Below, piece by piece: positions 4,515-20,424 of a DNA stretch of 64,000 nt. The position numbers were made by a program, and so were the translations under genes. Origin of the DNA: Pseudomonas sp. PDNC002 (GTDB lineage Bacteria; Pseudomonadota; Gammaproteobacteria; Pseudomonadales; Pseudomonadaceae). Each line of letters opens with the position of its first letter. Within the stretch, counting starts at the first letter, position 1. Location: positions 5,025,502 through 5,089,501 of the forward strand of contig NZ_CP070356.1 of NCBI RefSeq assembly GCF_016919445.1, given 5' to 3'. The notes below the pieces were generated by a model. That model worked only from the letters and a program-made list of their open reading frames with translations, had not been told where the DNA came from and did not search any database.

Positions 4515-5087
4515 ATGCTCACCATCCGCTTCGCCTGCCTTGCCAGCGCGCTGTCGCTGGCCGCGGCCACCCTGCTGTCCGGCTGCGGCAACCTCGCCAA
4601 CGTCAAGTCGTACTCCACGCCCTACTCCGCCCCGCAAGGTGGCGAGACGGCGCGCCTGCGGGTGATCACCAACGGCATGGCCCGCGGCGTACCCGGCAGC
4701 GCCTGCATCGACTGGCGCCACCCGGGCGCCGGCGTGATCGCCGTGGCGCAATCGGGGTTCGCCAACCGCAATGGCCAGAACCTGGGCATGCCTCCCAGCC
4801 GCCAGGCCGAGCAACTGCAACAGGGCGATTTCGTCAGCAGCGAGGTGGCGATCCCGGCGAACCAGCCCTTCGCCTTCAACTTCCAGAGCCAGGGCATGGT
4901 CAGCGGTGGCTACGCCTACAGCTGCCAGCAGTCCATGACCTTCACTCCCGAGGCGGGCGAGGATTACGAGTTGACGCTGATCGAAAGCGGCCAGTGCTTC
5001 GCCCGGCTGCAGCGCCTGGGCGATGGCCGCAACCTCAGCGGCAGCCTGCAGGACACCAGCCTGTGCAAGGCCACCGACGGTTTCTGA
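4515..5087 (+). CDS. putative lipoprotein
   Basis: 190 residues starting at ATG 4515, 14 bases after the previous stop, with a short AGGA upstream. The signal peptide ends in a clear lipobox (LLSGC), so it is probably an outer-membrane or periplasmic lipoprotein. The mature protein has several Cys residues (SACIDW, YSCQQS, GQCFARL, SLCKATDGF) and a beta-rich look. I do not recognise the family. It appears to be co-transcribed with the haemagglutinin and the duplicated lipoprotein. It could be an accessory or immunity factor, or an unrelated envelope protein. In-frame upstream sequence to 4407 overlaps the preceding gene and lacks a signal peptide, so the later start is preferred. Confidence 0.7.
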   Translation: MLTIRFACLASALSLAAATLLSGCGNLANVKSYSTPYSAPQGGETARLRVITNGMARGVPGSACIDWRHPGAGVIAVAQSGFANRNGQNLGMPPSRQAEQLQQGDFVSSEVAIPANQPFAFNFQSQGMVSGGYAYSCQQSMTFTPEAGEDYELTLIESGQCFARLQRLGDGRNLSGSLQDTSLCKATDGF

Positions 5088-10656: not shown

Positions 10657-10990
10657 TATCCGGCCCCTATCCAGTCGATATCATTGAAGTACAGGGAAGC
10701 CGCACGACTCTCTTTAGAAACTCTGGCCGCCGGAAAAGCCGAGCTTGCGGAGCAATAGACATCGAGACTCTCGAATCACCGCAATCAAACCCTTCTTGGC
10801 CTCATACAACTGAGGCCTATACAAGAAACAAGGGATTACATTCTTGAAAAGCGACGTGCTGACTCAGCCGAGACCGTGTGGCTCGTCAGCAGAATGTGCA
10901 GAATCCGGTGCCGGCCTCAGTCTCAGCTAAGTTTTGCTCCGTAGGCTCTCCTCCACGCCAACTGAAGCGCGGCCGGAGAGACGCCTCGAT
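10657..10990. other. 334-base intergenic region with a regulated promoter
   Basis: This gap lies between the ABC operon and the COG4705-like gene. No convincing coding frame or Rho-independent terminator was seen. Its 3' part carries the CTCAGT-N5-CTAAGT direct repeat (10916-10932) and a TAGGCT -10-like hexamer at 10942-10947. The 5' 250 bases show nothing I can name. Confidence 0.6.
10916..10947 (+). promoter_or_regulatory. PmrA-like direct-repeat operator with -10 element (copy 1)
   Basis: CTCAGTCTCAGCTAAGT at 10916-10932 contains CTCAGT-N5-CTAAGT, two hexamers repeated with an 11-bp period, the layout of PmrA and other OmpR-family sites (known PmrA box YTTAAK-N5-YTTAAK). A TAGGCT -10-like hexamer starts nine bases later. 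The identical 17-mer with identical spacing to a -10-like hexamer occurs at 18759-18775. The regulator encoded at 12329 is the obvious candidate to bind it. Confidence 0.6.
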
Positions 10991-11758
10991 ATGAACTCAA
11001 GCACGAAAACCTATTGGCTCAACAAAGTTCCGGAGGTGACGCTGTCCTTCTGGGCCATCAAGATCATGTCCACCACAGTGGGTGAGACATTTGCCGATTT
11101 TCTCGCTGTAGATGCAGGCCTCGGCCTGGGGATCACGACGGCGGCCATGGCGGCCTTACTTGCCATCGCCCTGGTCTGGCAACTGCGCACGCGTGCCTAC
11201 ACACCGTGGATCTACTGGCTAACAGTCGTCGTGGTGAGCATTCTCGGCACCCAGCTAACCGACATTCTCACCGATGTACTGGGCGTCAGCCTATACGCCA
11301 GCACGGCCGTGTTCTCTGGTCTCCTGGCCGTCAACTTCGGGTTCTGGTACGCCACTGAGCGCAACCTTTCCATCAAGGAAATCGTTACCCCGCGACGTGA
11401 GCTGTTCTATTGGACAACCGTTCTCTGCACCTTCGCTCTGGGCACAGCCGCTGGCGACCTGGCGACCGAAGCACTCAGCATGGGCTTCACCGTTGGCGTC
11501 TTCCTGTTTGGTGCCCTCATCGCCGCGACCTTCCTGGCTTGGAAGCTTGGCGCCGATGTTGTCCTGAGTTTCTGGATCGCCTACATCCTGACCCGTCCCT
11601 TTGGCGCATCACTCGGTGATCTGCTTACGCAGGCCAAGACTTATGGCGGCCTTGGCATGGGCGCCACCTGGACCAGTGCAATCTTCCTCTGCGTGATCCT
11701 GATGCTGGTGACGGTCGCTCAACTCGGCGTCAACAACGGCAAAAGTGCGTCCCAGTAA
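10991..11758 (+). CDS. COG4705-like multipass membrane protein
   Basis: 255 residues from ATG 10991, with a GGAGAG upstream. It is very hydrophobic, with seven or eight transmembrane segments. The family-typical block KVPEVTLSFWAIKIMSTTVGETFADFL appears at the N-terminus and is echoed later by RRELFYWTTVLCTFALGTAAGDLATEAL and GADVVLSFWIAYILTRPFGASLGDLL. This is an internally repeated (T)(V/A)GETxADxL fold, as in COG4705 membrane-anchored proteins of unknown function. It is the first gene of an apparent operon with a lipoprotein and a two-component system. Its promoter carries the same direct repeat as the arnT promoter, which suggests an envelope-stress or metal-related role. No transport activity can be read from the sequence. 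Confidence 0.8.
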   Translation: MNSSTKTYWLNKVPEVTLSFWAIKIMSTTVGETFADFLAVDAGLGLGITTAAMAALLAIALVWQLRTRAYTPWIYWLTVVVVSILGTQLTDILTDVLGVSLYASTAVFSGLLAVNFGFWYATERNLSIKEIVTPRRELFYWTTVLCTFALGTAAGDLATEALSMGFTVGVFLFGALIAATFLAWKLGADVVLSFWIAYILTRPFGASLGDLLTQAKTYGGLGMGATWTSAIFLCVILMLVTVAQLGVNNGKSASQ

Positions 11759-11783
11759 CCCTTACATCCTCAAGGAGCCTTCC

Positions 11784-12221
11784 ATGCCCCCTTTCAAGAA
11801 AATCGTCTGTAAAGTCGCGCTTGCCGCTGCCATTGCTCTGCTCGGACTCGCAGCCGGCTGCTCAAAGCAAGATGAACCTAAAACTGGCGCGAGCCAGCAA
11901 ACCAATGCGGGCCCGCGCATGCCGACCCAGCTCGGCGACCTTTCCGAGTTCCGCAGCATCGCTGCCGATGTCAGCGCCCTGGTCGACAAGAACGAACTGG
12001 AAAAAGGCAAAGCCCGTATCAAAGATTTGGAGCTCGCCTGGGACAATGCAGAAGCCGGAATCAAACCTCGTGCAGCCGGCGATTGGCACTACCTCGACAA
12101 GGCGATCGACCGCGCCCTTGACGCGCTTCGCGACGGTAGCCCTCAGCAGGCAACCTGCAAGGCCGCAATGGATGATCTGATGAAGGCGTTTGACATTCTT
12201 CAGGGACAACGCCAATCGTAA
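11784..12221 (+). CDS. small helical lipoprotein, unknown function
   Basis: 145 residues from ATG 11784, six bases after AAGGAG; longer in-frame starts lack an RBS. The signal peptide ends in the lipobox LAAGC, followed by a Ser/Gln/Thr-rich linker and an alpha-helical domain (SLVDKNELEKGKARIKDLELAWDNAEAGIKPR...WHYLDKAIDRALDALRDG). This resembles periplasmic lipoproteins found beside COG4705 genes and QseBC/PmrAB-like systems. It lies 25 bases after the membrane protein and about 105 before the response regulator, so it is probably part of the same transcript. The function is unknown. Confidence 0.7.
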   Translation: MPPFKKIVCKVALAAAIALLGLAAGCSKQDEPKTGASQQTNAGPRMPTQLGDLSEFRSIAADVSALVDKNELEKGKARIKDLELAWDNAEAGIKPRAAGDWHYLDKAIDRALDALRDGSPQQATCKAAMDDLMKAFDILQGQRQS

Positions 12222-12328
12222 AGCTCGACAGGCATATCCGTCCCACGGCTATCGTCAAACGATCTTCCCCCTGCACGGCAGCCAGATAGGTCGCCGTGCA
12301 AAGTGCAGTCAGGTTCCAGAGGCTGGGC

Positions 12329-12994
12329 ATGCGAATACTGTTAATCGAGGACGACCGCATGATCGGCGAAGCCATCGAGGGCGCGCTGAAGGATGCCGGC
12401 TACGCTGTCGACTGGGTGAACAACGGCCTGACTGCACTCTCTGCCCTGAGCACGCAGCCCTATGACCAGATCCTTCTCGATCTTGGTCTACCCGGTCGGG
12501 ATGGACTGAGCGTTCTTGAGAGTATCCGCGCACAGGACAATCCCGTCCCCTTGGTCATCATCACCGCGAGAGACAGTCTTGAAGACCGCGTGAGGGGCTT
12601 GGACGGTGGGGCTGATGACTATCTTCTCAAACCATTCGAAATGGCCGAACTGCTGGCACGCATGCGTGCTGTCATGCGTCGCACAAGTGGCACCGCTTCG
12701 CCTGTCCTCAGCAATGGCGTCGTTTTGCTGGATCCGGTTTCAAAATTGGCGAGCAGTGCAGAAGCCCAAGAAGTCCAGCTGTCGAACCGCGAGTTCAGCC
12801 TGCTCCAGGCACTCTTGATCAGGCCAGGCGCGATCCTGTCTCGCAGCGATCTGGAGGATCGTATCTACGGCTGGGGCCATGAAGTCGAAAGCAATGCGGT
12901 CGAATTCCTGATCCATTCGTTACGCAAGAAGCTTGGGGCCAACATCATCAAGAACGTAAGGGGGATGGGATGGATGGTCTCCAAAGGCGGCTGA
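12329..12994 (+). CDS. OmpR/PmrA-QseB family response regulator
   Basis: 221 residues from ATG 12329 (MRILLIEDDRMIGEAIEGAL). An upstream in-frame start at 12296 adds residues that break the canonical N-terminus. The receiver domain has acidic pair D8/D9, phospho-acceptor D51 in LLDLGLPGRDG, the ITAR Thr, and Lys in LKPFEMAELLARM. The C-terminal winged helix reads LSNREFSLLQALLIRPGAILSRSDLEDRIYG...VEFLIHSLRKKLG...NVRGMGWMV, of PhoB/OmpR type. It overlaps the sensor kinase gene by 25 bases. Family position is PmrA/QseB-like. The 11-bp-period direct repeats at 10916 and 18759 are the expected kind of target. Activating signal is unknown; iron or polycation sensing is inference. Confidence 0.9.
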   Translation: MRILLIEDDRMIGEAIEGALKDAGYAVDWVNNGLTALSALSTQPYDQILLDLGLPGRDGLSVLESIRAQDNPVPLVIITARDSLEDRVRGLDGGADDYLLKPFEMAELLARMRAVMRRTSGTASPVLSNGVVLLDPVSKLASSAEAQEVQLSNREFSLLQALLIRPGAILSRSDLEDRIYGWGHEVESNAVEFLIHSLRKKLGANIIKNVRGMGWMVSKGG

Positions 12995-14340
12995 AGGAGT
13001 CAGTGCAGTTCCGCCTATCCCTCGCGCTCTCGGTGACCATCCTGATCGTTGCCTCGCTCGCGAGCATCTTCGCCTTCGTATCCGCATACGATGAAGCGCT
13101 GGAGATGCAGGACAACACGCTGAAGCAAGTCGCAGCGCTCATCGAACGTCAACAGATGACACTGCACTATCCCAACCACGCCCCAGCCGTAGCCGGCGAC
13201 AACGAAGAAACCCGGGTGGTCGTGCAGTACCTGGCAGACAGTGCCATCGCTCCCGAGGCAAACGACAACAGCCTACCGCTACCAATTCCGAGCACCCTGC
13301 CGGATGGCTTCTCCACCGTCAGTGTCGCTGGCGAGGAGTTCCGCGTACTGGTGAGGACTACCTCGGTTGGACAGCGCATCGCTATTGCCCAGGAAACAGA
13401 GAGCCGCGATCGCGATGCACGTGAGAGCGCCTGGCGAGGACTGATCCCTTTCGTGATTCTGATCCCTGTTCTGCTCCTGGTGGTGGCTGACCTGATTCGC
13501 AAATTGTTCCGCCCCATCGCAATGCTGTCGGCCGAGATAGACCGACGAGACGATCAGGACATGGCGCCTATCGACGCGCGTCACTTGCCGACGGAGATCC
13601 GCTCGTTCGCCCTCGCAATCAACCGCCTTCTCGGCCGTGTCGGGAAGTCCATGGAGTCCCAGCGCCGATTCGTCGCCGATGCGGCCCACGAACTGCGCTC
13701 CCCGCTGACTGCCCTTTCCCTCCAGGCGGAGCGCCTTTGCGCGACGGAAATGTCCGAGCAGGCTCGGGAACGGCTGGGCAAGTTGAGACAAGGCATCGAC
13801 CGCGGTCGAAACCTGATCGATCAGTTGCTGGCTCTCGCGAGCGCTCAGTCATCGAACGCCACAGCGCGCACCCCAATCTCGCTGCACAAGGTCTATCGCA
13901 CGGTACTGGAGGATCTCTTGCCGGTCGCCGACAAGAAGCAGATCGATCTGGGCGTGGACGGCGATGACTGCGTGATAGTGACCAACGAACTCGAGCTGCA
14001 GACGATGATCAAGAACCTCGTCGACAACGCCGTGCGATACACGCCGCCACGTGGAAAAATCGATCTGCTGGTTGTGCAGCACGAAAACGCTGTTGTGCTG
14101 CAGATCAGCGACACAGGGCCAGGAATACCTGAATCGGAGCGCGAACGCATATTCGATGCTTTCTACCGAGTTCCGGGAAACGATGAGATTGGCTCTGGGC
14201 TGGGCTTGTCGATCGTGAAGACAATCGCCAATCGAATCGGGGCGAGCATCGAGCTGGACTACTCAGACAGCGACTCGAAAACTGGACTGTGCATCTCAAT
14301 CTGGATTCCCACGGCACAGGAAGCCGTGATCGACGGCTGA
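12970..14340 (+). CDS. sensor histidine kinase (PmrB/QseC type)
   Basis: 456 residues. The N-terminal transmembrane helix (FRLSLALSVTILIVASLASIFAF) and a second one near 160-180 (LIPFVILIPVLLLVVADLI) flank a ~130-residue periplasmic sensor region. HAMP-like and H-box sequence follows (RRFVADAAHELRSPLTAL, phospho-acceptor H240). The ATPase domain has an N-box (NLVDNAVRYTPPRGKI), a G1 box (ISDTGPGIPESERERIFDAFYR) and a G2 box (GSGLGLSIVKTIANR). It is the cognate partner of the response regulator that it overlaps. No ExxE iron-binding motif like that of PmrB is obvious in the periplasmic part, so the signal is not clear. Confidence 0.9.
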   Translation: MDGLQRRLKESVQFRLSLALSVTILIVASLASIFAFVSAYDEALEMQDNTLKQVAALIERQQMTLHYPNHAPAVAGDNEETRVVVQYLADSAIAPEANDNSLPLPIPSTLPDGFSTVSVAGEEFRVLVRTTSVGQRIAIAQETESRDRDARESAWRGLIPFVILIPVLLLVVADLIRKLFRPIAMLSAEIDRRDDQDMAPIDARHLPTEIRSFALAINRLLGRVGKSMESQRRFVADAAHELRSPLTALSLQAERLCATEMSEQARERLGKLRQGIDRGRNLIDQLLALASAQSSNATARTPISLHKVYRTVLEDLLPVADKKQIDLGVDGDDCVIVTNELELQTMIKNLVDNAVRYTPPRGKIDLLVVQHENAVVLQISDTGPGIPESERERIFDAFYRVPGNDEIGSGLGLSIVKTIANRIGASIELDYSDSDSKTGLCISIWIPTAQEAVIDG

Positions 14341-14543
14341 ACTTCCGAGCGAAACATTCGTTAGCTCATCGAGTAACTCGGCGGCACTCCCCTTCACGAA
14401 GCGACCGTTACCCTCGGCTGAGTCCGGGGGCCCACCGGCAGCGCGCCATCTGCAAGATCAGCCGTTCGAGTGGACGTCATGGTGAGACTTCGTCATTTCG
14501 CCATCACGACGCCATTGCACAAAGGCTCCTTGCTAGAGTATTT

Positions 14544-14558
14544 TGAGAATCACTTACA
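14544..14558 (+). promoter_or_regulatory. candidate Fur box upstream of the ECF sigma gene
   Basis: TGAGAATCACTTACA agrees with 10 of the 14 fixed positions of the 7-1-7 Fur motif by hand. It sits about 55 bases before the FecI-like sigma gene, where iron repression of such regulators is normally exerted. This is the only notable element seen in the 14341-14613 gap. Confidence 0.45.
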
Positions 14559-14613
14559 TCTGCAATTTTATTGCAACTAGCCATCCAGATCGTATCCTCG
14601 GTAGACGTCGGTG

Positions 14614-15141
14614 ATGAAGCAAAGAACGGCATCGCTACTGGCGTGCTTCATCGCCGAACGAAAAACGCTGATGCGTTACCTGACAGGGCGCACGGGATGC
14701 CCCGCCATCGCCGAGGACCTTCTGCAGGACGCCTGGCTCAAACTCCACCGCAGCAACGCCGACGACCTGATCGTCAATCCGCAAGCCTACCTGCGCCGCA
14801 TGGCGGCCAACCTGGCAATTGACGACGCCCGTAGCAATGCACGGCGTCTACTCGACTCGACTGAAATTGACATGCTGCTCGATGTTCCCGATGAGGCTCC
14901 TGGCGTGGAACAGCGCGCCGCTGACTTTCAGGCGCTGGAGTGCCTGACTGAGATCCTCGAGGAAATACCTGCGCGTCGCCGGGAACTGTTCCTCGCTGCC
15001 CGCGTCGAGGGCCTGCCTCACAAGCAGTTGGCAAGCCGCTTCGGCGTCAGCCTGCGCACGGTCGAATTGGAAATCCATCGCGCCCTCGACCACTGCACGA
15101 CCCGACTGAAGCAGTTGACCGGCGAACAGACGATTATTTAG
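14614..15141 (+). CDS. ECF sigma factor, FecI/PvdS-like
   Basis: 175 residues from ATG 14614 (a GTG one codon earlier is possible; the RBS is poor either way). Region 2 reads AERKTLMRYLTGRTGCPAIAEDLLQDAWLKLHR...NPQAYLRRMAANLAIDDAR, with the DLLQDAWL core signature. Region 4 reads LEEIPARRRELFLAARVEGLPHKQLASRFGVSLRTVELEIHRALDHC. This is the iron-starvation class of ECF sigma factors, activated through an inner-membrane FecR when the outer-membrane receptor binds its siderophore. FecR and receptor genes follow directly, completing a FecIRA cell-surface signalling set. Confidence 0.92.
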   Translation: MKQRTASLLACFIAERKTLMRYLTGRTGCPAIAEDLLQDAWLKLHRSNADDLIVNPQAYLRRMAANLAIDDARSNARRLLDSTEIDMLLDVPDEAPGVEQRAADFQALECLTEILEEIPARRRELFLAARVEGLPHKQLASRFGVSLRTVELEIHRALDHCTTRLKQLTGEQTII

Positions 15142-15185
15142 TGCCCCCATGTACAGTTCCCGTCTCCTCTAGTACAAGCCCCCCT

Positions 15186-16136
15186 ATGACCCAGCCCTCC
15201 TCCCCTTCGAATCAATCGGAAAGCCGCGCCAGCCAGGCCAACGCCTGGGTCGTGCGCATCACTTCCGGGCGGGCGACGGTAGAGGATGCGCGTGCGCTCA
15301 AGCATTGGTGCGCGCTCACTCCAGAGAATGCCGCGGCTTATCGCGAGGCCGTTCGGCTCTGGAAGCTCGCCGGGCAATTGCCTGCATCGAGCAAGCGCCG
15401 CCGCCCTGGAGTGCGCCTCGCTGCCAGCAGCATTGCAGCGGCGTGCCTGGTAGCTGCGGTGCTGGGCACTATGCAGATCGGCGTATTTCCCAGCGGCTAC
15501 GACCTATTGGCCGATTACTACACGGGTGTGGGCGAGCACCGGCAGGTTCGACTGGCAGATGGCAGCATCGTCGAACTCGATGCAAAAACCCGCATGAGCA
15601 TCGACTTCAGCGATAGCGAGCGGCGCATTTCCCTGGGCGACGGCGCGGCGATCTTCCATGTGCAGCATGATCCGGATCGCCCCTTTGTGGTCAGCGCGAA
15701 GGGTGGCACCGTCACCGCCTTGGGCACCATCTTTGAAGTTCGCTACCAGAACGATGGCATCCAGGTGACCTGCACGCAGGGAGCCGTCGAGGTTCGAGAT
15801 CGCCAGGGCGCGACCGAGCGTGCGCGTGTCAGGGCTGGCGAACAACTGGCGTACGGAGCGCGTGGGACCTCGCCGGTGGCGCTGGTAGAAAGTGAGCAGG
15901 TGCTGGCCTGGCAGCAGAATCTGCTGGTGTTCAAGGCCCGGCCGCTACAGGACCTTGTGGACGAGTTGAACCGCTATCGCCAAGGCCGCGTCATCATCGC
16001 GGACTCGAAGAAAGCGAAAGCCCCGGTCAGCGGTGTCTTTCACCTGCAGCGTCCAGACGAGGTGCTGCAACACATCGAGAACAGTCTTCAGCTATCCGCC
16101 ATCCGGCTTCCAGCGGGCATTATCGTCCTGCGATAA
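15186..16136 (+). CDS. FecR-family anti-sigma/sigma regulator
   Basis: 316 residues from ATG 15186, 44 bases after the sigma gene. The N-terminal ~85 residues are the cytoplasmic sigma-binding domain (NAWVVRITSGRATVEDARALKHWCALTPENAAAYREAVRLW). One transmembrane helix follows (LAASSIAAACLVAAVLGTM). Then comes the periplasmic FecR domain (YYTGVGEHRQVRLADGSIVELDAKTRMSIDF, RPFVVSAKGGTVTALGTIFEVR, VQGAVEVR) and a C-terminal STN-like segment (FKARPLQDLVDELNRYRQGRVIIAD) that contacts the receptor's signalling domain. It relays occupancy of the downstream TonB receptor to the sigma factor. Confidence 0.92.
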   Translation: MTQPSSPSNQSESRASQANAWVVRITSGRATVEDARALKHWCALTPENAAAYREAVRLWKLAGQLPASSKRRRPGVRLAASSIAAACLVAAVLGTMQIGVFPSGYDLLADYYTGVGEHRQVRLADGSIVELDAKTRMSIDFSDSERRISLGDGAAIFHVQHDPDRPFVVSAKGGTVTALGTIFEVRYQNDGIQVTCTQGAVEVRDRQGATERARVRAGEQLAYGARGTSPVALVESEQVLAWQQNLLVFKARPLQDLVDELNRYRQGRVIIADSKKAKAPVSGVFHLQRPDEVLQHIENSLQLSAIRLPAGIIVLR

Positions 16137-16235
16137 AAAAGTTCTCCGACGATTGCGGGTTACCTAATCGGGCAGCGTCTTCAGATAAGAACGCTTTTCA
16201 TCTGCACTTATCTGTTGCTACCAATTGGGGAAAAC

Positions 16236-18617
16236 ATGGGGACGTTACAAGCATCCAAGCCTCGCATGCCTTCGAGGTACCTGATCGTCACTCGCAGCAC
16301 CTGGGCACTTACCGCCCTGCTGAGCTGCTCGGCAATTGCCTCGCTACCGGCCTTCGCTGCCGAGTCGATTCCTGCCGGCAAGGCACAGCCACAATCGTTG
16401 CACTTCTCCATTCCTGCCATGTCGCTGGACGATGCGCTTGCTGCCTACGGAATCACCTCCGGGGTGCAGGTTCTCTATCCGGCAGAGCTCACGAAGGGAC
16501 TTCGTTCGAGCCCCATCAGCGGCATGCTGACACGAGACCAGGCGTTGTCTCAGATACTCGCAGGCTCCGGGTTGTCGTTCCGTTTCACCGATCAGCGCAG
16601 CGTTACCCTGCTGGGCCGGACCAATGACGCCAGCAGGGGGAACGATCCGCTCGAACTTGCCCCCCTCGTTATCTCGGGTGAAAAAATAAATCGCACTCTG
16701 GAGCAAACCCAGACCAGCGTGGTGGTGAACACTGACGCGGACTTCAAGGAGCACGGCGACAACACGCTGAACGATGTCTTTGCTCGCACCCCCGGCGTCT
16801 ACACCCAGCCAGGCAACAAGAACTGGGGTATTCGCGGTGTTCCGGTATCGGGGTTCGACGACCAAGGTCCAGCAACCCTGAACGGTGCGGTGTCGGTCTT
16901 CGTAGACGGCGCGCAGCTGCCAAATCGCGCCTTGACGCTGAGCCCGCTGCCACTGTGGGACGTGGAGCAAGTCGAGGTCCTGATGGGGCCTCAATCGACC
17001 ACTCAAGGTCGCAACTCCCTGGCGGGTGCGGTAGTCGTGCAGACCCGAAATCCAACGTTCACACCGTCGGCCTCTGCACGCGCCAACGTCGGGAACTACG
17101 GCACCCAGGGCGGCGCCGCAGCAGCGGGCGGACCACTGGTGGACGGCGTTCTAGCCGGCCGTCTTGCCGTGGACTATCAAGAGAGCGACGGCTATATCGA
17201 CAACATCGCCACCAACGATGATGCCAACCGCCAACGTAACAGCAACGTGCGCGGCAAGCTGCTGTTCCTGCCCAACGATGAAACAGATGTATTGCTGGGC
17301 TTCACCCATAGCGAAAACCGCCAGGGCGTGAACGCCTCGACCCGCCAGAACGGTCACGTGCGCTTCTACAAGATCGATGAAAACTCCAGCGCATACGACA
17401 AGATGAAGCAGGACACCGGCACGGCAAAGATCGACTATCGCCTGGATGACGCCTGGACACTTACCTCACTGACCGCTCTCACCCGCTCCGACTACAACGC
17501 CCTATTGGACTTTGACCAGACCTCAAGCGACAACATGGAGGCGATCCGAAGCCAGGACACCACGATGTTCAGCCAGGAAGTCCGGCTCGGTTATGACGTC
17601 ACCGATTTGAAAGGCTTCATTGGCCTTTACTACGGGCATACTCGCAACGATTACCATGACCTGCTGACGTCCGATGGAGCGCCGTTCGGCACGGTGAAAG
17701 GCGACACCCGCATCGATAACCAGGCAGTGTTTGGCGAGTTCAACTGGACCTTCCAGCCCGGCTGGACGCTGATTACCGGTGCCCGCCTCGACAGTGAGCA
17801 CAACGACACCCACGTCGACCAGGACGACTTCTCCAGCCCCGGCGATGCGTCGAAGCGCTTCAGCGCTTTTCTACCCAAGCTTGGCCTTGATCATGAACTG
17901 GCAGCCAACCAGTACGTTGGAGTGATGGTTCAGAAAGGCTATCGCGGTGGTGGCGTGAACGTTCGAGCCGGCGGAGGCCATGCCGCTTACGATCCGGAGT
18001 ACACCACCAACTACGAACTCTCCTATCGCGGCGCGTGGCAGGAGCGAACCTTGCGCCTGCGGGCCAACGTTTACTACACCAAGTGGAAGGACCAACAGGT
18101 CAGCATGCTCGACAGCACGGGCAACTTCTTCCAGGTCTACAACGCAGGCGAAAGCACCATCCGCGGCCTGGAAAGTTTCCTGGAAAAGGATTTCGGCAGC
18201 AGCCTCAGCCTGAATGCCGGCATGGCCTACACCGACGGCAAGTATCACGACTTCATGGTTGGGGATACGGACTTGGGCGGCAAATCGTTCCTGTACTCGC
18301 CCAAGTACAAATTTTCTGCGGGAGGCGTTTATCGATTCGCCAATGGGTTGAGCGTGGGCAGCGACATCGTCTACCAGGACGGCGCTCCATCCGAGTACCA
18401 ACTTGACGACGAAGGTCATGTGGTTCATCAGCGCAAGAGCGACTACTACACGCTGGTCAACCTGAACGCCGAGTACCAGCTCACCCAGGAGCTGACAATC
18501 TCGGGCTATGTGAAGAACCTTTTCGACAAGGACTACATCACCAACGACCGCAGCGGCGACTTCGTAGACGTAGGAGCACCTCGTACGTTCACCGTGGCTC
18601 TGCAGTACGACCTTTGA
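16236..18617 (+). CDS. TonB-dependent siderophore-type receptor with N-terminal signalling domain
   Basis: 793 residues from ATG 16236 (GGGG 5 bases upstream; the TTG at 16215 is less likely). Order: signal peptide ending in LPAFAAE; STN/secretin signalling domain (LHFSIPAMSLDDALAAYGITSGVQVLY...VTLLGR, roughly 50-125); TonB-box-like LAPLVISGEK near 140; plug (VVVNTDADFKEHGDNTLNDVFARTPGVYTQPG, VEVLMGPQSTTQGRNSLAGAVVVQT); 22-strand barrel ending in TFTVALQYDL with terminal Leu. It imports an iron chelate energised by TonB and signals through FecR. The ligand cannot be read from sequence. A weak Fur-like stretch (16184-16202, 11 of 19) precedes it. Confidence 0.93.
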   Translation: MGTLQASKPRMPSRYLIVTRSTWALTALLSCSAIASLPAFAAESIPAGKAQPQSLHFSIPAMSLDDALAAYGITSGVQVLYPAELTKGLRSSPISGMLTRDQALSQILAGSGLSFRFTDQRSVTLLGRTNDASRGNDPLELAPLVISGEKINRTLEQTQTSVVVNTDADFKEHGDNTLNDVFARTPGVYTQPGNKNWGIRGVPVSGFDDQGPATLNGAVSVFVDGAQLPNRALTLSPLPLWDVEQVEVLMGPQSTTQGRNSLAGAVVVQTRNPTFTPSASARANVGNYGTQGGAAAAGGPLVDGVLAGRLAVDYQESDGYIDNIATNDDANRQRNSNVRGKLLFLPNDETDVLLGFTHSENRQGVNASTRQNGHVRFYKIDENSSAYDKMKQDTGTAKIDYRLDDAWTLTSLTALTRSDYNALLDFDQTSSDNMEAIRSQDTTMFSQEVRLGYDVTDLKGFIGLYYGHTRNDYHDLLTSDGAPFGTVKGDTRIDNQAVFGEFNWTFQPGWTLITGARLDSEHNDTHVDQDDFSSPGDASKRFSAFLPKLGLDHELAANQYVGVMVQKGYRGGGVNVRAGGGHAAYDPEYTTNYELSYRGAWQERTLRLRANVYYTKWKDQQVSMLDSTGNFFQVYNAGESTIRGLESFLEKDFGSSLSLNAGMAYTDGKYHDFMVGDTDLGGKSFLYSPKYKFSAGGVYRFANGLSVGSDIVYQDGAPSEYQLDDEGHVVHQRKSDYYTLVNLNAEYQLTQELTISGYVKNLFDKDYITNDRSGDFVDVGAPRTFTVALQYDL

Positions 18618-18625
18618 TTGAAGCA

Positions 18626-18653
18626 CGGAGCGGCCGCACGAATTGCCGCTCCG
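18626..18653 (+). terminator. possible terminator hairpin after the TonB receptor
   Basis: CGGAGCGGC and GCCGCTCCG form a perfect 9-bp stem with a 10-base loop, starting 8 bases after the receptor stop. It is not followed by a T run, so Rho-independent action is doubtful. Confidence 0.35.
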
Positions 18654-18758
18654 GTCTACGCCGCCCTCGCCTGCCGGGACCTTGCCCCGCTTCAGCCTGG
18701 GCGATGGCGGCGTAGCCTCTTCGTTCAAGGTGCCGTTACGGCCTGACCCGCCCTCTCG

Positions 18759-18790
18759 CTCAGTCTCAGCTAAGTCTCACCTCGTACCCT
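18759..18790 (+). promoter_or_regulatory. PmrA-like direct-repeat operator with -10 element (copy 2)
   Basis: CTCAGTCTCAGCTAAGT at 18759-18775 is identical to 10916-10932. Nine bases later comes TACCCT (18785-18790), the same spacing as TAGGCT in copy 1. A downstream CACGCCAAC is also shared. It ends 64 bases before the arnT-like start. Both genes are therefore probably controlled by one OmpR-family regulator. Confidence 0.6.
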
Positions 18791-18839: not shown

Positions 18840-20424
18840 ATGACCGACATCACGCTCCTATCGACGCGCCATGCGAGTCCACATACCCCAGCCATACATC
18901 GCGCAATACCTGCTGCGGCATACCCTGCCCTGCTGATCGCCTTTGTTCTATTTTTCCTCGTCCCTCTTGGCCTTCACGGGCTCTGGATTCCAGACGAAAC
19001 GCGCTACGCCCAGGCGGCCCAGGAAATGCTCCAGAGCGGTAATTGGGTAGTTCCGCATTTCATGGGATTGCGGTACTTCGAGAAGCCCATCGGCGGCTAT
19101 TGGTTGATCGCCTTCGGCCAGGCGATATTCGGCGACAATCTGTTTGGAGCACGTATCGCCTCTGCCGCGAGCACGGCGGCCACTGTGGGCCTGATATTTC
19201 TGCTTGGGCGTCGCCTCTGGAATGACAGCTGGAAGACCTGGACGGCCGGCCTGCTCTACATGAGCTTCGGCCTGGCTGCGGGCCAAGCCGGCTACTCGAA
19301 CATCGACCCGCAACTGACACTCTGGATAACACTCAGCCTGGTCGCAGGCTGGTATGCCATGGAAGGCAAAGGGCGGCGCGAACAATGGGCTGGGTGGGGC
19401 ATGCTGGGCTTGGCGTGCGGTTCACCGTCAGGAAGCGGATTTCTGGCAGTTCTTTTTCTGGAATGAACACATCCGGCGCTTCGCGGGAACCAAGGCACAA
19501 CACGCGGCGCCCTTCTGGTTCTTTGTACCCATGCTATTCGCCGGCGCCCTCCCTTGGGCAATGCTGGTCGTCCCAAGCCTGAAACGCGCCTGGCGTGACC
19601 GGAAGGAATGCCGCATAGCCTTTCTGAGCCTGTGGCTCGCCATGCCATTCCTGTTCTTCAGCCTCAGCAAAGGCAAGCTGCCGACTTACATTTTGCCTTG
19701 CTTCGTTCCGCTCGCTCTCCTGATGGCCAACACACTGGTCGACAAACTGCGGCAAAGGGATGTGTCTGCGGTAAGTGGCAATGGCTTGCTCAACCTGGTC
19801 GTCGGGAGCCTCGCCCTGCTGGGTCTGGTCGTCGCTCAAATCGTTCACCCGATCTACACAAACCAACCCGTGCAGGTGGTCCTTGCGTTGCTGGTGTGCA
19901 TCGGGTGGGCCGCGTGCGGATTCGCTCAATGGATGCGCCCCACACGCCATTGGTTTGCACCGGCTCTCGGGATCTGGATGCTGATCGCGCTGCTCCCGGC
20001 AGCGATGCCGCAGTCAGTCGTCGATAACAAGATGCCCGATCAATTCATCGCCCAGCACTTGGACGTGCTGAAGACCTCGAAGAGTTTGCTCAGTAATGAA
20101 CTAGGAACAGCGTCGGCTCTGGCGTGGCGGCTCGGTCGCAGCGATGTGACTCTGCTGGATGTGCAGGGCGAGCTTCAATACGGCCTCACCTATTCGGATG
20201 CCAGCAGTCGAAAAGTCACGTCCGAGAACGTCGCAACGTGGATTGCAGATCGAGCAGAAGAAGGCCCGGTCGGGATCGTGTTGGACCTTTCTGGAAAGTC
20301 CAACGCAGTCGCCCCGTCATGGATTCCACCAGGCTCTGAGGTCTACCACGAGAACAACCTGCTCATAGTGGTGACTCAACGCCGCGGGAGTCCCGCTCCG
20401 CCATCGGCGAGCAAAACACCCTGA
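18840..20424 (+). pseudogene. arnT: arnT-like lipid A 4-amino-4-deoxy-L-arabinose transferase, internal deletion
   Basis: The first frame (18840-19466) begins like ArnT/GT83: [32 protein letters not shown] with the catalytic-loop Asp, then several membrane helices up to GMLGLACG. It then falls out of frame and stops. ArnT sequence resumes in another frame near 19424 ([37 protein letters not shown]) and continues to 20424, including the C-terminal periplasmic region. From memory of ArnT, about 55 residues between GLACG and HRQEADFW are missing, so the lesion is a deletion of roughly 170 bases plus a frame change, not a single-base slip. ArnT adds L-Ara4N to lipid A and gives polymyxin resistance. 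A functional split protein seems unlikely because membrane helices are lost. The promoter has a PmrA-like box. Confidence 0.8.

Follow-up and report, generated by a model that had tools for sequence, protein, structure and literature searches.

A conserved direct repeat with a -10 hexamer as candidate operator of an OmpR/PhoB-type regulator and of a second arnT gene in Pseudomonas sp. PDNC002

Two copies of a promoter element were found in the window, i.e. the whole stretch of 64,000 nucleotides of Pseudomonas sp. PDNC002 that was analysed. We propose, and consider likely, that this promoter has a built-in activator site for the response regulator encoded at 12329, through which the regulator's own operon would be self-activating and a second arnT gene (arnT2) would be controlled as well. 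In the proposed mechanism, the kinase encoded at 12970 would phosphorylate the regulator, which would bind the direct repeat CTCAG-N6-CTAAG (11-bp period) as a head-to-tail dimer. The bound regulator would compensate for a missing -35 element, and RNA polymerase would be recruited to the -10 hexamer TAnnnT, nine bases past the 17-mer that contains the repeat. At site 1 this would activate the DUF347-lipoprotein-regulator-kinase operon, and at site 2 it would place arnT2 under the same control. Activation rather than repression is suggested by the layout of the site. No TTGACA-like promoter was found between 10600 and 21000, where 2.7 would be expected, which fits an activator-dependent promoter.

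The 17-mer CTCAGTCTCAGCTAAGT occurs, as exact matches in the whole window, at 10916-10932 upstream of the DUF347-regulator operon (copy 1, with the pattern CTCAG-N6-CTAAGT) and at 18759-18775 upstream of arnT2 (copy 2), both on the plus strand. Nine bases past each copy stands a -10-like hexamer on the same strand (TAGGCT at 10942-10947 and TACCCT at 18785-18790), followed further downstream in both cases by CACGCCAAC, and the distance from 17-mer to start codon is 58 bases (ATG at 10991) and 64 bases (ATG at 18840), respectively. All of this agrees with the original prediction, which had described the repeated plus-strand 17-mer, a TA(GG/CC)CT hexamer nine bases on, a later shared sequence and a start codon after 58-65 bases. 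A third copy with up to three mismatches is absent from the window (expectation from shuffles 0.08). The prediction had also called for a genome scan, in which many unrelated copies would have spoken for a dispersed repeat; CTCAGT-N5-CTAAGT was found exactly twice in the 6.39-Mb single-contig genome, and the sites with one mismatch are also two in number, both within ORFs. The identity of the two 17-mers might be taken to indicate a functionless dispersed repeat or a recent duplication, but this is hardly credible with two copies in 6.39 Mb and with an element position that is kept across many species. Moreover, the 100-bp flanks are only 27% identical upstream and 28% identical downstream (ungapped), and hence the copies are not a duplicated segment. 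The genome-wide count and the conservation together refute this explanation.

The bare pair of hexamers is not rarer than chance, as judged by a control in which the same pattern is read backwards: exact matches in this genome number two against two in the control, and matches with up to two mismatches 73 against 136. No genome-wide regulon could be delineated with the bare pattern, which shows no enrichment over the reversed control. Addition of the -10 hexamer at nine bases makes the pattern specific, with 14 sites against 2 controls at no more than one mismatch in 25 genomes of the window's genus. In the PDNC002 genome the same search gives two sites against no controls, and these two are the only ones that the whole genome retains.

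Conservation of the element was assessed in 80 loci (the best 80 of 260 relatives of the DUF347 gene, with flanking sequence of up to 10 kb to either side), using the pattern CTCAGT-N5-CTAAGT-N9-TAnnnT with at most two mismatches. By its DUF347 gene, the nearest named relatives of the window are P. pseudonitroreducens and P. nitroreducens. The element lies upstream of DUF347 in 77 of the 80 loci with at most one mismatch and in a 78th (L154) with two. It is present, including the -10 hexamer, in all 78 loci that bear the regulator and in neither of the two that lack it (L151 and L168), where DUF347 and the gene for the small lipoprotein are present without regulator, kinase or element. The TAnnnT hexamer is found at nine-base spacing in 78 of 80 loci, as was demanded by the search pattern. 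Two loci deviate in the position of the element, which precedes DUF347 by 1139 bp (L200) and 200 bp (L201) and stands ahead of another ATG, and in one of the 78 (L146) the regulator is split over two frames. Information content is high from the bases immediately preceding the first half-site through to the -10 hexamer, and further upstream than six bases from the element no column exceeds 0.31 bits. Some of the high-information columns are fixed by the search pattern, but a CAG in the spacer and a T two bases past the second half-site are conserved though the pattern left them free. These 80 loci contain no additional targets above background: with at most one mismatch there are 79 sites against 0 controls, and with two or three mismatches six sites (one being the L154 operator) against six controls. 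The conservation and the tracking of the regulator support the original prediction of a real operator at the level of a predicted site, and autoregulation is supported by the presence of the element upstream of the regulator's own operon in all 78 loci that have the regulator.

A possible RNA structure was also observed downstream of the element. In the leaders, including that at 10948-10990 of the window, a CTCC (CTGC in L138) near the -10 hexamer pairs with the ribosome-site stretch. This pairing was predicted in nine of nine DUF347 leaders folded, with energies no better than those of shuffled sequences; z-scores in ten leaders ranged from -1.9 to +0.5, and a leader hairpin is not convincing. 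The CTCC near the -10 hexamer may lie outside the transcript.

Element and regulator occur together in 54 of 274 genomes from two genera; one of them is found alone in 2 genomes and neither in 218. In the larger set (249 genomes of the genus of G054; regulator orthologues at E <= 1e-90), the element was found in 47 genomes and the regulator in 47, with both in 46, neither in 201 and no site in the reversed control. The sole element-only genome (G287) has an operon without lipoprotein gene and regulator, in which DUF347 seems to continue directly into the kinase, and the sole regulator-only genome (G346) is an assembly that is 73% complete. In the window's genus, element and regulator are found in the same 8 of 25 genomes (2 sites in the control), and a third locus with DUF347 and lipoprotein gene, in G122, is without both regulator and element. 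The Fisher value for the association of element and regulator (6e-48) overstates independence, because the two lie in a single operon, and so are in part simply inherited together, in genomes that are themselves related. There is also overlap between the 80 loci and the 274 genomes (L123-L125 match G060, G107 and G084). The arnT2 sites and the loci without regulator are the only evidence that operon linkage does not affect, and they are few in number. Since the element occurs almost only where the regulator is present, it is very probably the landing site of the 12329 regulator. In G255 a second element without mismatch was observed (C1:1273698-1273729; L254, L290), upstream of a distant (38%) paralogue of DUF347.

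Members of this regulator family are much alike (the 12329 regulator is 50% identical to its nearest paralogue in the genome), and a BqsR-type site of the same genome has a like layout and similar pentamers. The element could thus belong to the BqsR/CarR orthologue (3914026) or to a QseB/PmrA-like paralogue (95859), with the 12329 regulator as a passenger. We regard this as unlikely, as loci and genomes without the 12329 regulator are also without the element, except for G287. Furthermore, the excerpt of PMC12666569 describes BqsR as a P. aeruginosa system, and BqsR would be expected in genomes of the genus that lack the element. The nearest paralogue (G000:C1:95859, L280) has, as read by eye, a GTTAAC-N5-CTTAAT within 400 bp before its start, which is a more classical PmrA/QseB-like repeat. 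Binding by the 12329 regulator is the reading followed below.

The first gene of the operon (10991-11758, plus strand) encodes a DUF347 membrane protein (PF03988, 4.1e-53; COG4705-like according to the original prediction) with eight predicted helices and a structural model with a mean pLDDT of 74. It is followed by a gene for a small lipoprotein-like protein, orf146 (11784-12221, plus strand), with a lipobox-like LAAGC and a helical domain (mean pLDDT of the model 76.5). No Pfam family was found for orf146 at E <= 0.001, and a loose-threshold Pfam search with 37 lipoprotein relatives gave scattered weak matches only. A fold search of the DUF347 protein and the lipoprotein against the PDB gave no match at E <= 0.001, and therefore suggests no function for either.

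The regulator (12329-12994, plus strand) consists of a receiver domain (PF00072, 8.2e-28) and a winged-helix Trans_reg_C domain (PF00486, 1.5e-18), as is characteristic of the OmpR/PhoB family. Its best NCBIfam models are QseB (NF007663; 215.3 bits, curated equivalog cut-off 345) and PmrA (NF007928; 209.6 bits, curated equivalog cut-off 330), both below cut-off, and by this measure it is not PmrA. CarR orthology goes to the gene at 3914026, which scores 248.6 bits to 8gc6 (the CarR structure used to identify the BqsR/CarR orthologue) and 177 bits to 9yfa, and not to the 12329 regulator. The sensor histidine kinase (12970-14340, plus strand; PF00512 and PF02518) has an ExxE motif at residues 42-45, at the end of its first hydrophobic stretch. 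By this motif it resembles the iron-sensing kinases of the PmrB/BqsS type, which carry a periplasmic ExxE. The extended motif ExxExQD is found in 73 of the 78 kinases, while 5 are without it, and the kinase of the nearest paralogue in the PDNC002 genome, read by eye, has no ExxE at that place. In BqsS the segment R44-E45-x-x-E48 has been tested, and its second Glu is essential for Fe(II) binding (PMC12666569, in excerpt). The placement is the same in both kinases, just past the first membrane stretch (E45-x-x-E48 in BqsS, E42-x-x-E45 here), which hints at a metal signal; such a signal is plausible.

The second target, arnT2 (18840-20424, plus strand), is broken in PDNC002 into two overlapping ORFs in different frames (18840-19466 and 19354-20424). 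As calculated from the coordinates, it is a net ~158 nt shorter than two intact relatives (580 and 561 aa, in L072 and L073), and the break is an out-of-frame internal deletion. With arnT2 broken, the arnT output of this system looks lost in PDNC002, and arnT2 is probably not the route of the lipid A branch in this strain. A full-length arnT is located elsewhere in the genome (2239927-2241504, 688 bits), and no element with up to three mismatches was found in the surrounding 10 kb.

With the P. nitroreducens copy as query, arnT2 was found together with the regulator in six genomes of the genus, including the broken copy in PDNC002 (copies with regulator are 76-100% identical). The element lies about 80 bp before the arnT2 start in all six, i.e. 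in PDNC002 and five relatives. In two of the six, arnT2 directly follows the kinase with a gap of ~145 bp, and in three it is unlinked to the regulator (at a distance of ~95 kb or ~14 kb, or on a different contig). For the arnT copies of G122 (69%) and G092 (66%), which are without the regulator, the best site within 1.5 kb upstream has at least four mismatches; the regulator-less G076, in which the arnT start is missing, was left out of the element count. One arnT2 (71%) was found in the other genus, in G159, where the element ends 315 bp upstream, before a DUF347 remnant; it is the only copy above 56% identity among the matches listed in 249 genomes. In G092 (contig 10, 325578-328049), the arnT2-like gene is preceded by two adjacent matches to the orf146 lipoprotein family, at a locus without regulator and element. 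Thus, the originally proposed mini-regulon with arnT finds support in the element that precedes arnT2 in the relatives but is compromised in PDNC002, where the gene is split in two frames and lipid A modification through it is doubtful.

FecI- and FecR-like genes (14611-16136, plus strand) are located between the kinase and arnT2, and the same block includes a FecA-like TonB-dependent receptor (16239-18617, plus strand). No close relative of FecIRA was found in the 80 loci, of which 76 reach at least 4.5 kb beyond DUF347: for FecI the best identity is 27%, with distant relatives (25-27%) in three loci, for FecR it is 32%, with distant relatives in six, and FecA has no match. The FecIRA block looks like a local insertion, and an fbp-like transporter adjoins the operon in 18 of 80 loci; the iron-uptake island of the original prediction is therefore a local feature. 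As support for iron, both transporter and FecIRA block are weak. Coupling to iron would be a guess, for which the kinase's ExxE motif is the only support. In L195 (a gammaproteobacterial assembly) a CTAAGT-N5-CTAAGT was observed at 5062-5078, upstream of an fbp-like operon, with no TAnnnT at the usual distance. It is very unlikely that the conserved site is the promoter of an ECF sigma factor, e.g. FecI at 14611. This FecI is located between the two sites, and the conserved CGTA is like some ECF -10 elements, but the relatives of FecI do not exceed 27% identity and occur in 3 of 80 loci, against 78 of 80 for the element, and the conserved block spans ~20 bp with two half-sites rather than a short -35. 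On these grounds the explanation was rejected.

The binding site itself shares its architecture with PmrA boxes. As predicted, it is a direct repeat of the PmrA type with a period of 11 bp. The -35 position falls at the first half-site: given a 17-bp spacer from the -10 hexamer, the -35 would straddle the first half-site and the spacer, a placement also reported for PmrA at the pbgP promoter (PMC4660055, in excerpt). The predicted YTTAAK half-sites, on the other hand, are not found, as each half-site has 4 of 6 matches to YTTAAK-N5-YTTAAK in either register. When the register is moved by one base, copy 1 becomes CCTCAG/GCTAAG, each with 5 of 6 matches to the Klebsiella PmrA half-site CCTAAG (PMC10927774, in excerpt). 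The BqsR box TTAAG-N6-TTAAG differs from CTCAG-N6-CTAAG in its bases at equal spacing.

The residues of PmrA that contact bases are Thr187, Asn188, Val192, His195, Asn196 and Arg210 (PMC4660055, in excerpt). In the 77 full-length orthologues among the 78 regulators, Asn188, His195 and Arg210 are kept, the position of Thr187 is Ser, that of Val192 is Phe (75) or Tyr (2), and that of Asn196 is Ala (53), Ser (16) or Gly (8). Five paralogues in PDNC002 have Val or Ile at the Val192 position and His or Arg at the Asn196 position. The altered residues of the recognition helix may explain the altered half-sites. A wider reading, which we offer tentatively and hold to be somewhat less than an even bet, is that this is a third PmrA-type metal/cation stress system in Pseudomonas, in which an aromatic residue (Phe193) and a small one (Ala/Ser/Gly197) of the recognition helix would have shifted the operator preference from TTAAG to CTCAG/CTAAG, so that cross-talk with BqsR and with the cell's PmrA-like regulator would be avoided, and in which a portable second arnT would carry its own site wherever it moves.

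In the open-licence literature, COG4705 appears in no paper. Among the matches listed, none of those for DUF347 is on the present system, none of those for CTAAGT with response regulator and Pseudomonas is evidently on the present site, and none of those for Pseudomonas arnT/PmrB/iron is evidently on the DUF347-regulator system. As judged from sequence comparison and from the open-licence literature searched, the predicted operator and mini-regulon are real and their layout is ordinary, while the half-sites and the system that they serve are new. A widespread sensor-regulator pair, on which no study was found in that literature, thus gains a candidate landing site and a small regulon, with natural controls in the genomes and loci that lack both regulator and site. 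If the proposal is true, the role of the DUF347 membrane protein could be tested via a defined switch, and the system would offer an uncomplicated example of how operators diverge between sister regulators of the same cell.

Compared with known systems, the site would function as PmrA and BqsR boxes do, with its own half-site sequence. PmrA/BasR of Salmonella and Klebsiella is likewise an OmpR-type regulator with an 11-bp direct repeat over the -35 and with arnT as a target, and in the shifted register a single base separates each half-site of copy 1 from the Klebsiella sequence. It differs in that the regulator described here is below the PmrA cut-off, with two of the six base-contact residues changed and one Thr replaced by Ser, and in that the controlled arnT is a second copy and not the full-length arnT at 2239927. 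ColRS of P. putida, another two-component system that responds to metals, also controls a regulon that includes an ArnT homologue, but its ExxE is near the second membrane stretch, unlike that of the present kinase (PMC4074579, in excerpt). The likeness to BqsRS of P. aeruginosa includes a link to cationic-stress defence and a box of two pentamers six bases apart, the last of which overlaps the promoter core; BqsR binds TTAAG-N6-TTAAG and activates (PMC4682146, in excerpt).

The BqsR orthologue is a separate gene in the same genome (3914026), and its operon starts with two small ORFs, which we take to be PepSY-like, whereas here DUF347 comes first. Upstream of that operon, a scan that required the same -10 distance and allowed three mismatches found the orthologue's own site, TTCAG-N6-TTAAG-T-N9-TAGTCT, with the same layout as the element described here.
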